A DNA stretch of 64,000 bases from an uncultured Oscillospiraceae bacterium (lineage in GTDB: Bacteria; Bacillota; Clostridia; Oscillospirales; Ruminococcaceae), in NCBI GenBank assembly GCA_949741215.1, contig CATJLA010000189.1:1-64000 (forward strand). The letters are read 5' to 3'. Positions 57,926 to 64,000 of the stretch are shown piece after piece. The notes under the pieces are model-generated. The model saw only the letters and a program-made list of their open reading frames with translations. It did no database searches and had not been told where the DNA came from. Within the stretch, counting starts at the first letter, position 1, and the number at the start of each line of letters is the position of its first letter. The translations under genes were made by a program, and so were the position numbers.

Positions 57926-58789
57926 TCAGGACATCAGGTAGCTCAGGTCCTCTGCCGAAAGCCCCGGCTGCAGCGCCCGATTGATTGCCATGGAAATCAC
58001 CTGGGCTCCCCGGTCAATCAGCTGGTCTATTTCCCGCGGGGTGACGATCATCTGGTTCAGCTCACCGCTTTTGGGGGGCTGCTCCTTTCCCGAAAGCTGC
58101 TGGGCCAGGCTCCAGGCGTCCACCACAGTGGGAATGCCCACCGAAAGCACCGGAATGCCCAGGGTATGGCGGCTTAGCTCCTTGCGGCGGGTCATTAAGC
58201 CGGAGCCGGGGGAGATGCCGGTATCCGAAAGCTGGATGGTACACCCCAGGCGGGAAACCTCCCGGGCCGCCAGGGCGTCCACCGCAATTACTGCCACGGG
58301 CTTTAGGTCCTTTACCAGGCTGTGAATCATCTCCCAGCTTTCAATACCGGTTTGGCCAAGCACACCGGGGGCCACCGCGGCCACGGGGCGCAGCTCGTCC
58401 AAAAGAGGGACTTGGGTTGCACCCATAAGGTGCCGGGTTGCCAGGATTTTGCTTGCCATGCGGGGGCCCAGGGCATCCGGGGTGATGGCGATGTTGCCTA
58501 AGCCCACCACCAGCGCCAGGCCCTTTGGCGGAAGCAAAGGGGCAAGCTGGCTGCGCAGGGCTTCCGCCTGGTCGTCACAGCAGGAGGCGCTTTCCAGCAG
58601 GGGCGGCATGGAAAGGGTAACATACCGCCCCTGAGGCTTGCCAAAGGCTTTTGCGCCCTCCTCGCCGGTAATTTCCACCGTTTGGATTTCCACCTCGTTT
58701 AGCTGCTGGGTATGCAGGGTAACCCCCTTGGGAAGCTTTTGGGAGAAGGTTTCCGCCGTTTCCAGGGCGAGATCAGTTCTCGGGCTCAT
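57926..58789 (-). CDS. gpr: GPR endopeptidase (spore germination protease)
   Basis: PRTDLALETAE ... VVGLGNIAITPDALGPRMASKILATRHL; start revised to 58789. Confidence 0.95.
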   Translation of the reverse strand: MSPRTDLALETAETFSQKLPKGVTLHTQQLNEVEIQTVEITGEEGAKAFGKPQGRYVTLSMPPLLESASCCDDQAEALRSQLAPLLPPKGLALVVGLGNIAITPDALGPRMASKILATRHLMGATQVPLLDELRPVAAVAPGVLGQTGIESWEMIHSLVKDLKPVAVIAVDALAAREVSRLGCTIQLSDTGISPGSGLMTRRKELSRHTLGIPVLSVGIPTVVDAWSLAQQLSGKEQPPKSGELNQMIVTPREIDQLIDRGAQVISMAINRALQPGLSAEDLSYLMS

Positions 58790-58838
58790 AAAAATGCTCC
58801 TTTTTTCAAATAAATTTTGAGTTTGTGCGGAAAAATAG

Positions 58839-58867
58839 TTGCAATTTTCAAAAAAAGATGGTATCAT
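58839..58867 (+). promoter_or_regulatory. Sigma-A promoter for rpsT
   Basis: TTGCAA-N17-TATCAT upstream of AGAGGAGGTG RBS. Confidence 0.7.
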
Positions 58868-58906: not shown

Positions 58907-59158
58907 ATGCCGAACGTAAAATCCGCAAAGAAGAGAGTTAAGGTTATTGCAACCAAAACTGCTCAGAACAAGGCTTTGAAGTCCAACCTGAAGACTGTAT
59001 TGAAGAAAGCCGATCTTGCTATTGCCAATAACGCTGCCGACAAGAGCGAGGCTGTAAGATATGCAATGAAGACTCTGGATCAGGCTTGTGCAAAGGGCCT
59101 GCTGCACAAGAACAGCGCTGCCAGAAAGAAGTCTACTCTGGCCCGTGCCTGCCAGTAA
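58907..59158 (+). CDS. rpsT: 30S ribosomal protein S20
   Basis: MPNVKSAKKRVKVIATKTAQNKALKSNLKTVLKKA. Confidence 0.97.
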   Translation: MPNVKSAKKRVKVIATKTAQNKALKSNLKTVLKKADLAIANNAADKSEAVRYAMKTLDQACAKGLLHKNSAARKKSTLARACQ

Positions 59159-59786: not shown

Positions 59787-61157
59787 ATGAAAATGAACAG
59801 GACCGAAAATACTTCCGGAAAAAGCCGTATCAAACGCCTTACCCGCATCTTTTTCAGCAGGCGCCGCCTGTCTGCCGCCCTTTTGGGCCTGCTTCTTACC
59901 GGGGTTGTTCTCCGGTGGGAGCAGCTTTCCCCTTGGCTGCGGCAGGGAGCGGCCCAAACCGCCGCGCTTTCCGCCGCGCTTGCGATGCCTGAAGTTACCA
60001 TAGACTACCTAAAATCCCGCTACAGCACCGAGCTTGTGCCTCCGTCCCAAACGGAACAGCCATCTATACCGGTTTTGCCCCAGGACGAAACTGCAAGCCA
60101 ATCTTCTTCCGCCTCCCGGCCTCTTCCGCCGGACACTTTGGTGCCGGAACAGGAAATAACCTCCTCTTCCGCCCCTCAGGAACCGCCGGAGCAATCCTCG
60201 TCCTCCTCCCAAAGCCAGCAGACAGAAAACGGGCCTTCTATAACGGATATTCCTGCAGCCCAGCGCGGCCGGCTTGTGGAAAAGCAGTATACTGCCACAG
60301 CAGGCGGACGCTATATCTCTTATGGTGACGGCCTGATCCAAAATACCACCACCCTTTCCAATGAGGAAGTGTTGGAAATTTTGGAAACCCCAGCCCGGCT
60401 GAATCCTACGGAGGAGGGTGAGCCTCAGGTGCTGATCTACCATACCCATGCCACCGAGGCCTTTGAGCCTTACGACCGTACCTTTTATGACAAACGGTAT
60501 AATTGGCGTTCCCGGGATAATACTAACAACATGGTTGCGGTAGGCACTGTGCTTGCCGAAACGTTGGAGGAAAACGGCATCAGCGTCGTCCATATAGAAA
60601 CCCAGCACGATTACCCCTCGTATAACGGAGCTTATGAAAAAAGCGCCCAGACCATCCAGGAGGTGCTGGAGCAGTACCCTTCTATTCAGGTAATTCTGGA
60701 TGTGCATCGGGATGCTATTCAGGAAGACAGTTCTACCATTGTAAAGGCAGTGGCAGAGATTGAAGGGGAAAAAACCGCCCAGCTGATGATTATTGCCGGC
60801 TGTGATGACGACGGCAGCCTGGGAATGCCCCGCTGGCGGGAAAATCTGCGGTTTGCTGCAGCGCTGCAGTCTCGTCTGGAAGGGGCTTACCCCGGGCTTA
60901 CCCGGCCGGTGCTGTTCAGCTACCGGAAGTACAACATGGACCTTTGCCCTAACGGGGCGCTGATTGAGTTTGGTTCCCACGGCAACACATTGGAGGAAGC
61001 CAAGCGGGCCGCCCGTATGGTGGGGGAGCAGCTGGCGGCTTTGTTGAAAGGGGAGGACAAGGCTGATCAAAAGGAAGAAGAAAGCGAAGGCGCAGCATTA
61101 CCGCAAAACCAGGAGGATCTCGACAGAACGGGGGCCGAGGCCGGCGCTGGTTTATAA
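59787..61157 (+). CDS. spoIIP: Stage II sporulation protein P
   Basis: VLIYHTHATEAF ... VLDVHRDAI ... TRPVLFSYRKYNMDLCPNGALIEFGSHGNTLEEAKRAARMVGEQLA. Confidence 0.96.
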   Translation: MKMNRTENTSGKSRIKRLTRIFFSRRRLSAALLGLLLTGVVLRWEQLSPWLRQGAAQTAALSAALAMPEVTIDYLKSRYSTELVPPSQTEQPSIPVLPQDETASQSSSASRPLPPDTLVPEQEITSSSAPQEPPEQSSSSSQSQQTENGPSITDIPAAQRGRLVEKQYTATAGGRYISYGDGLIQNTTTLSNEEVLEILETPARLNPTEEGEPQVLIYHTHATEAFEPYDRTFYDKRYNWRSRDNTNNMVAVGTVLAETLEENGISVVHIETQHDYPSYNGAYEKSAQTIQEVLEQYPSIQVILDVHRDAIQEDSSTIVKAVAEIEGEKTAQLMIIAGCDDDGSLGMPRWRENLRFAAALQSRLEGAYPGLTRPVLFSYRKYNMDLCPNGALIEFGSHGNTLEEAKRAARMVGEQLAALLKGEDKADQKEEESEGAALPQNQEDLDRTGAEAGAGL

Positions 61158-61533
61158 AAGGACGTCGAAAGCCCCCCTGCCGGGGGGCTGGAAGGCAGCT
61201 CTGGCTACAGGGGCGGCAACACTGCTGGCCTTTGGGCTGTGGTTTGGGTTTGGCGGCGTAAACCTGATCATGCAGGAATATGATATTCCCGAGCCGAGGG
61301 AGCTGCTGGAGGTACGGCATCCCCAGGAGATGATTTGGGAGGCCAGCTGTATGGGATACACCCTGCAGGTAAACCTGGAGCCGCTGAACCAGGCTGTAGG
61401 AGCAGGGCAGCGTTTTTTTGCCTTGATTCCCGCAAAATACCGGTTTGGGGCGCAGCTATGGCGGTTAGGGGAGCTGGAGTGGCAGGAGCAGCAGCGGCAG
61501 CAGCGGGTGCGGGAGTTTGAGCAGGGGGTGTAA
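61063..61533 (+). CDS. Hypothetical single-TM protein overlapping the spoIIP 3' end, probable non-ATG start
   Basis: Frame open from 61048 with no ATG/GTG/TTG before 61270; reads LIKRKKKAKAQHYRKTRRISTERGPRPALVYKRTSKAPLPGGWKAALATGAATLLAFGLWFGFGGVNLIMQEYD...; AAGGGGAGG lies 6 nt before CTG 61063. Confidence 0.6.
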   Translation: MIKRKKKAKAQHYRKTRRISTERGPRPALVYKRTSKAPLPGGWKAALATGAATLLAFGLWFGFGGVNLIMQEYDIPEPRELLEVRHPQEMIWEASCMGYTLQVNLEPLNQAVGAGQRFFALIPAKYRFGAQLWRLGELEWQEQQRQQRVREFEQGV

Positions 61534-61546
61534 AAATAGCCGCAGG

Positions 61547-62014
61547 CTAAAATGTTGGGATCTCTCCGGGATAACATTTTGCTTTTTCCAGCAAGGGGCC
61601 TTTTGCCCCCATGGTAAAGGCAATATCGCTGCTGCGGATGGAAAGCAGCTCTATCCCCGGCCTGATTTGCAGAAACTCCATCATTGCCTTTGTCAAAACA
61701 ATCCGCCCGGCTTGGGAGATATCAACCCAGCAATAAAACCGCCCCTTATACCGGACAAACTCTCCGCGGGGGGCGGTATAATTCTGCAAACCGGGGTTTT
61801 CTGTGAGAATATGGTTCAGCCGTGAAGGCTCCAGCAGGCCTTTTCTGGTAACACAAAAGCCGCCGGTGCTTTTGCTTCCGGTAAACAGGTACACGTTTTT
61901 GTCTGCTGTTATGGCGTATTCTTCCATGGCCTGGGGCGGAATTTGGAGTGCTCCGTCCTTTTGAATGACGGATTTTCCAAAAATAAACTTGCCTCCCTTG
62001 TTCATTTGCGGCAT
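61547..62014 (-). CDS. Hypothetical conserved-looking protein, possibly AbrB-like fold
   Basis: GCAGCCGGAGG-like AGGAGG RBS on - strand; KFIFGKSVIQKDGALQIPPQAMEEYAI and SIRSSDIAFTMGAKGPLLEKA. Confidence 0.65.
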   Translation of the reverse strand: MPQMNKGGKFIFGKSVIQKDGALQIPPQAMEEYAITADKNVYLFTGSKSTGGFCVTRKGLLEPSRLNHILTENPGLQNYTAPRGEFVRYKGRFYCWVDISQAGRIVLTKAMMEFLQIRPGIELLSIRSSDIAFTMGAKGPLLEKAKCYPGEIPTF

Positions 62015-62235
62015 TGCGGCAGCCTCCTTATAAAAATAGAATAGGTTTCTTATCATATCACAAATTATTAGTCAGGACAAGCTCTGCCGCCGGGAAATTG
62101 CCCTGCCTTAAAACAGCCTGCTGCAAATTCCGTTTGCATACCGCCGTGTGCTTGTGTTATAATGGAAATGTTTGATCGCGATAAAAATGCAGCAGGCTAA
62201 ACGACGTCATAACATAAAAGGAAAAGGTGAGTAGA

Positions 62236-64000
62236 TTGTCGGGAAACCGGGAGAATATCAGGAATTTTTGTATTATTGCCCATATCGACCACGGCAAATC
62301 CACGCTGGCGGACCGGATTTTGGAGAAGACCAGCGCTGTTTCCCTGCGGGAGATGGAGGACCAGCTGTTGGATAATATGGATATCGAGCGGGAACGGGGC
62401 ATTACCATTAAGGCCCGGGCGGTTCGGCTGAATTATAAGGGCCAGGACGGCCAGGATTATATTTTTAACCTGATTGACACCCCCGGCCATGTGGACTTCC
62501 ACTATGAGGTTTCCCGGTCGCTGGCGGCATGTGAGGGGGCGCTGCTGATTGTGGATGCCTCCCAGGGGATTGAGGCCCAGACCCTGGCAAACACTTACCT
62601 TGCCCTGGAGCATGATCTGGAGATTCTGCCGGTAATCAACAAGATCGACCTGCCCTCTGCCGAGCCGGAGCGGGTTTGCCAGGAGGTAGAGGACGTCATC
62701 GGCATCCCGGCTATGGACGCCCCCCGGATCTCTGCCAAAAACGGCGTGAATATCGAGGCGGTGCTGGAGGACATTGCCGCCAACATCCCCGCCCCCAAGG
62801 GCAACCCGGACGCCCCCCTGAAGGCGCTGATTTTTGACTCGGTGTATGACAGCTACAAGGGAGTTATCGTCTATATTCGGGTTATGGACGGAACCGTTAA
62901 ACCCGGCATGGTGATCCGTATGATGTCCACCGGGGCAGAGTTTTCAGTGGTGGAAACCGGCTACATGGGGGCTACCAACCTGGTGCCCAGCCCCGGATTA
63001 AGCGCCGGGGAGGTTGGCTACATTACGGCAAGCATCAAAAATGTAAAGGAGACTGCGGTAGGCGATACCGTCACCGAGGCGGAAAACCCTGCGGCAGAGC
63101 CCCTGCCCGGCTACCGGAAGGCAAACCCCATGGTTTTCTCCGGCATTTATCCGGCGGACGGAGCGAAATACCCTGATCTTAGGGACGCGCTGGAAAAGCT
63201 GCAGCTGAACGATGCTTCCCTTTCCTTTGAGCCGGAGACGTCGGTTGCTTTGGGGTTTGGGTTCCGGTGCGGTTTTTTGGGGCTTTTGCATATGGAAATT
63301 ATTCAGGAGCGGCTGGAGCGGGAGTATAACCTGGATTTGATTACCACTGCCCCCAGCGTTATCTACCAGATTACCCTGACCAACGGGGAAACGGTTTTTA
63401 TTGATAACCCCACCAATTACCCTGACCCTGCCGTAATTGCCAACGCCCGGGAGCCTTATGTAAAGGCCAGTATTTTTACCCCCACCGCCTACATCGGCAA
63501 CATTATGGAGCTGTGTCAGGACCGCCGGGGGATCTACCACGATACCAAATATTTGGATACCGACAGGGTAGAGCTCCATTATGAGCTGCCCTTAAACGAG
63601 ATTGTATACGACTTTTTTGACGCGCTGAAGTCTCGCACCAAAGGGTATGCCTCCTTTGACTATGAGCTTTCCGGCTATCAGGATTCCAAGCTGGTAAAGC
63701 TGGATATTCTGCTGAACGGCGAAACGGTGGACGCCCTTTCCTTTATCGTCCATGCGGACAAAGCCTACCCCCGGGCCCGCAAAATGGCGGAAAAGCTGAA
63801 GGAGCATATTCCGCGCCAGCTGTTTGAGGTGCCTATCCAGGCGGCCATCGGCGGCAAGGTAATTGCGCGGGAAACTGTAAAAGCCATGCGTAAGGACGTA
63901 CTTGCCAAGTGCTACGGAGGAGACATCACCCGGAAGAAGAAGCTGCTGGAAAAGCAGAAGGAGGGCAAAAAGCGGATGCGTCAGCTTGGCACGGTGGAGG
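62236..64000 (+). CDS. lepA: Elongation factor 4 (LepA), 3'-truncated by window edge
   Basis: TTG start; [64 protein letters not shown]; missing from the ORF track because it runs off the window. Confidence 0.98.

Follow-up and report, generated by a model that had tools for sequence, protein, structure and literature searches.

The spoIIP-lepA region of the window

The window analysed here is a stretch of 64,000 nucleotides from an uncultured Oscillospiraceae bacterium. It carries spoIIP and, directly downstream, a small gene hereafter called X. The features discussed below are the following.

59787-61157, + strand: spoIIP, encoding the engulfment peptidoglycan hydrolase, 456 residues in this assembly (Pfam SpoIIP, 4.8e-68; TIGR02867 over cut-off)
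61048-61056, + strand: Shine-Dalgarno sequence AAGGGGAGG of X (predicted duplex -10.9 kcal/mol)
61063-61533, + strand: X, small membrane protein gene, 156 codons counted from the CTG (homologues directly 3' of spoIIP; AlphaFold2 pLDDT 83)
61063-61065, + strand: CTG with an A after it, the strongest candidate start if the sequence is taken as given (preceded by the Shine-Dalgarno sequence; CTGA recurs in loci L051, L045 and L050)
61066-61068, + strand: ATC, second candidate start (Shine-Dalgarno spacing)
61066-61185, + strand: predicted basic cytoplasmic tail, low model confidence (AlphaFold2; net charge count)
61147-61149, + strand: CTG, third candidate start; the spoIIP stop ends 11 nt further on (weaker Shine-Dalgarno site, -8.6 kcal/mol at spacing 11)
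61186-61278, + strand: predicted transmembrane helix, model residues 41-71 (AlphaFold2; lost if translation starts at 61270)
61306-61530, + strand: predicted extracytoplasmic domain of three strands and two helices (AlphaFold2; the strand-strand-strand-helix order is also found in the model of distant homologues)
62227-63999, + strand: lepA, the conserved downstream neighbour, which runs off the window (TIGR01393, 3e-299)

A mechanical ORF list reports only 61270-61533 for X. The first-pass annotation had proposed a longer, hidden gene in the same frame, and its sequence details are all correct. Region 61048-61533 of the + strand is open from stop to stop over 161 codons, and ATG 61270 is the earliest ATG, GTG or TTG in it. 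The basic peptide LIKRKKKAKAQHYRKTRR... followed by a hydrophobic stretch reads as described. The announced overlap with spoIIP of about 95 bp is also found, position 61063 lying 95 nt inside the spoIIP ORF.

Several side observations concern the surroundings of X. A convergent ORF of 169 amino acids (61547-62056, - strand) is located between X and lepA and interrupts the usual spoIIP-X-lepA order. Neither Pfam nor NCBIfam gave an above-threshold match for it; two AbrB-like stretches, GALQIPPQAMEEYAIT and GRIVLTKAMMEFLQIRPG, were noticed by eye. On the other side, rpsT (58907-59158) and, divergent from it, a gpr-like spore protease ORF (57926-58867, - strand) were also recognised by eye. The order gpr-like gene, rpsT, spoIIP, X, lepA resembles the Bacillus neighbourhood. 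Within the N-terminal coding part of X, a perfect 8-bp GC-rich inverted repeat (AGCCCCCC TGCC GGGGGGCT) spans 61170-61189 (+ strand). Its folding is not significant against shuffled sequences (z -1.32), and a hairpin that would present the Shine-Dalgarno sequence in its loop is too weak to claim (z -1.83 against shuffles). An Rfam search gave no match over a gathering score.

A clostridial family encoded downstream of spoIIP

No Pfam or NCBIfam model matches the X protein. A single-protein scan of genome contigs found no relative, X being too divergent for short exact peptides. A whole-genome search detected distant relatives in the same family as the window. We then used a profile (A1) built from nine sequences, whose eight seed relatives each follow a SpoIIP-like ORF directly. 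A1 matches 80 of 398 genomes in the family, belonging to 41 of its 126 genera (E ≤ 0.01, the weakest matches being uncertain). All A1 relatives for which a SpoIIP ORF was detected on the same strand are located 3' of that ORF. Among the first 30 loci, the window's own included, tblastn places spoIIP upstream at the expected position in 28; L019 shows it as an ORF and not by tblastn, and L022 is at a contig end. The same gene arrangement recurs, with exceptions, at 40 further loci and at 33 named spoIIP loci from public genomes (uncultured Oscillospiraceae, Merdimmobilis, Provencibacterium, Soleaferrea and Caproiciproducens). For 11 of these 33 a match to the small gene is undetectable, and one more locus stops at a contig edge. 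A class-wide search returned 16 matches outside the window's genome, 15 of which sit 3' of spoIIP, most with lepA next. Matches in other clostridial families are also found between spoIIP and lepA. Profile-profile comparison with ten of these distant homologues gave 96.7%, a value obtained with homologues that had been found using the same profile.

By sequence homology, X represents in this genome a clostridial family that is not catalogued and whose members are encoded immediately after spoIIP. We define here this spoIIP-X-lepA small membrane protein family by homology, by position directly 3' of spoIIP and by an architecture of basic N-tail, one transmembrane helix and three strands plus a helix outside; X shows all of these. 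With homologues in so many genomes, the hidden gene announced by the first-pass annotation is almost certainly real.

AlphaFold2 modeling with 38 members gave a low-confidence tail (residues 1-40), a helix (41-71), strands (81-103) and two helices, with a pLDDT of 83. A second AlphaFold2 model, calculated with ten distant members, comprises a transmembrane segment, three strands and a helix. Search for structural similarities with the X model using Foldseek against the PDB revealed no match at E ≤ 0.001. The net charge from the CTG to the transmembrane core is +15 in X; it is positive in 93% of the relatives, with a median of +3. In the closest genus, the protein begins with MRVKKKK, MRAKKRR or MRKKRRK right after spoIIP, comparable to IKRKKK after 61063. 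The basic tail and membrane helix are conserved in relatives, in agreement with the positive-inside membrane protein initially suggested, and the predicted topology of X is N-in/C-out with a single membrane helix.

A canonical start before the transmembrane helix, usual though not defining in the family, is present in 81 of 83 members; X and L051 are the two that lack it. Because of this distribution, the N-terminal part with the helix belongs to the gene, and the product is longer than 61270-61533, as had been claimed. Orthologues starting at the equivalent of 61270 would have spoken against that claim; the relatives start before the helix. Translation of 61270-61533 only, as in the mechanical list, is therefore extremely improbable. 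ATG 61270 is the first canonical start codon in frame, but it falls inside the end of the transmembrane helix, so that this start would remove a segment common to the relatives, and it is preceded by a weak Shine-Dalgarno site (-4.8 kcal/mol at spacing 11). The topology also bears on the idea that programmed frameshifting joins SpoIIP and X into a single fusion protein. A purine-rich stretch of 95 nt is indeed shared by the two frames. However, the C-terminus of SpoIIP is outside the membrane whereas the basic tail of X should be inside, and in the relatives the two are distinct proteins, separated by stop codons. We give this fusion hardly any credence.

The start of X and the end of SpoIIP

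The sequence AAGGGGAGG had been described as well placed for initiation at CTG 61063 or ATC 61066, and the predicted duplex agrees with this. Its -10.9 kcal/mol, at spacings of 5 and 8 to the CTG and the ATC respectively, compares with a median of -8.55 kcal/mol for 42 ORFs of the window. Since no more than about 6% of the CTG or ATC codons at internal positions attain -8 kcal/mol, this signal is more than expected by chance. Translation of X quite probably starts at 61063/61066. Whether CTG or ATC truly serves as the start codon is a separate matter, on which we see the chances as equal.

The family offers a second case. L051 (G295:C15) has only a CTG as start (CCC CTG AAG), with a Shine-Dalgarno sequence, GGAAGGAG, of -9.4 kcal/mol. 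At this junction (about 1470-1500), spoIIP ends in GAG ATC CCC TGA and its stop overlaps CTG AAG CGG as CTGA. The CTGA is retained in the sister species L045 and L050, in which an ATG found nine bases later is too far from the Shine-Dalgarno sequence. CTG initiation is therefore plausible in the X family, and L051 raises the rate of CTG starts within it. On the other hand, CUG starts are very rare in general, only 2 of 61,358 ancestral AUG starts having switched to CUG (PMC5622118), which counts against a CTG start in X. Further CTG-only members were sought in the order and none is clear. At L144, the frame has no listed start before the transmembrane call, and that call is misplaced at position 0.

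The end of SpoIIP is unusual in the window. Its conserved part ends near 61056 and is followed by a tail of about 33 residues that is not seen in 70 relatives, where at most 13 residues (mean 5) extend past the conserved part. In 58 relatives with curated starts, the downstream gene begins at most 4 nt inside spoIIP, so that the 95-nt overlap of the window is itself anomalous. Most family members have no overlap with spoIIP at all (median gap 24.5 nt), and only 17% lie within -8 to +10 nt of it.

Codon usage in the overlap was then considered. Plain codon scoring favors the SpoIIP frame (+9.2 vs -0.7 bits) but is also positive beyond the SpoIIP stop. Because it is confounded by amino-acid composition, it was set aside and synonymous codon use was adopted. 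The synonymous score of the SpoIIP frame over the overlap is -5.4, a value as low being found in 2.8% of true-frame windows and one as high in 40% of off-frame windows. Cumulatively, this score climbs to 61062, then falls. Over 61066-61112 it is -6.0 in the SpoIIP frame vs +2.0 in the X frame. These tests draw on only 15-30 codons; taken over the entire overlap, the score of the X frame is uninformative. The pattern in the SpoIIP frame suggests that SpoIIP formerly ended near 61064-61066, at a TGA overlapping the CTG in another frame.

One way to account for this is a one-base slip at the spoIIP/X junction, either an assembly error or a recent real deletion. In the intact form, TGA 61064-61066 would terminate SpoIIP and be overlapped by an NTG start codon of X. 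A base missing between 61063 and 61064 would give an ordinary ATGA-type overlap and no unusual start would be needed. A single event would thus explain both the over-run of SpoIIP and the absent canonical start. The off-frame look of the codons in the SpoIIP tail, with a break near 61063, points in the same direction. Moreover, -4 nt is the commonest overlap in prokaryotes (PMC10666635), and the assembly is fragmented (192 contigs, 87.9% complete). However, the fact that one indel repairs both anomalies is not diagnostic, since it is possible at 83% of simulated random junctions with the same constraints. We therefore rejected it as proof of an error, and the argument for a slip is carried by the length and codon use of the SpoIIP tail. 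Against a slip stands L051, a CTG-only member without SpoIIP over-run; in addition, a slip elsewhere upstream would still leave the CTG as start. Genuine CTG/ATC initiation and a one-base slip come out about even, and we put the slip itself slightly below one chance in two.

Alternatively, the long SpoIIP tail could be real and X could start at CTG 61147, with a short basic tail, VYKRTSKAPLPGGWK, before the membrane helix. Tail length and overlap would then be nearer to those of the family, and the codon is preceded by a Shine-Dalgarno-like site. However, this site is weaker and more distant than that of 61063/61066, the KRKKK block after 61066 that resembles the start of the closest relatives would be left as a coincidence, and codon use in the SpoIIP tail looks off-frame. 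We regard a start at 61147 as improbable.

Taken as a whole, the explanation that we favor, with modest rather than strong confidence, is that of a real gene at 61063-61533, starting at 61063/61066 and not at 61270, and encoding an N-in/C-out membrane protein, a probable partner of SpoIIP. In the sequence as given, translation would begin at CTG 61063 (or ATC 61066) behind the strong Shine-Dalgarno sequence, and SpoIIP probably once ended at the TGA overlapping this CTG. A more ambitious version, in which an uncatalogued clostridial engulfment membrane protein repeatedly has CTG as its sole start (the window, L051, possibly L045 and L050), placed there for low synthesis tied to spoIIP translation, appears rather doubtful to us. 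Should CTG starts prove genuine here, annotation programs that do not consider this codon would miss the membrane anchor or the whole gene.

Putative role and comparison with known systems

Once inserted, X would keep its basic tail in the cytoplasm, its one helix would cross the membrane and its small three-strand/helix domain would lie on the outer side. During sporulation, this outer side would be the space where SpoIIP works. X, presumably co-expressed with spoIIP, would then most likely be a partner of SpoIIP in engulfment. Our best inference, drawn from neighbourhood and topology, is that the protein is either a partner of SpoIIP in the membrane or a regulator of it. Subunits of complexes are over-represented among genes separated by short distances (PMC10666635), although only the 17% of members mentioned above lie that close to spoIIP. 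A 2012 comparative study reported clostridia that lack both of the factors known to direct SpoIID/M/P to the septum of Bacillus (PMC3533761). The engulfment papers searched do not refer to any gene located downstream of spoIIP. Engulfment is a core sporulation step. A widespread membrane protein that is encoded beside spoIIP and is not covered by any family model readily suggests itself as a candidate partner.

Stop-start gene pairs of the NTGA type (-4 nt) are represented in the family by L051 (CTGA) and by L073, L079 and L108 (TTGA). The window differs from them: the spoIIP frame does not stop at TGA 61064-61066 but passes it and stops at 61157. Most relatives have a short gap instead.

B. 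subtilis YqxA (DUF3679, PF12438) is, like X, a small protein with a single transmembrane segment near the N-terminus, encoded between spoIIP and lepA; in the window, the convergent minus-strand ORF also intervenes before lepA. The first-pass annotation had pointed to this shared position without claiming homology, a caution that was justified, kinship at the sequence level being only suggestive. PF12438 has no match in the X protein at E ≤ 1, and its only match at E ≤ 1 in the window's genome lies elsewhere, below cut-off. Two genomes (L121 and L122) have a PF12438 match at the same position as X. With hhalign, comparison of the X profile (A2) with the YqxA-type profile (A3) gave 37%, and that of distant clostridial members (A4) with A3 gave 65%. 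In other clostridial families, the proteins encoded between spoIIP and lepA at L123 and L125 have sub-threshold DUF3679 scores (E 0.0016 and 0.0037); they may connect YqxA with the clostridial family. Unlike X, YqxA-type proteins have no strongly basic tail, and their domain lengths are different. In the literature searched, DUF3679 was not mentioned, and yqxA appeared with spoIIP or sporulation only in passing.

Pfam and NCBIfam searches gave no match of X to the families of SpoIID, SpoIIM or SpoIIP, the components of the DMP machinery. Its resemblance to this machinery is one of place: X is likewise found at spoIIP, directly downstream, and is predicted to be N-in, its domain facing the outer side of the membrane.
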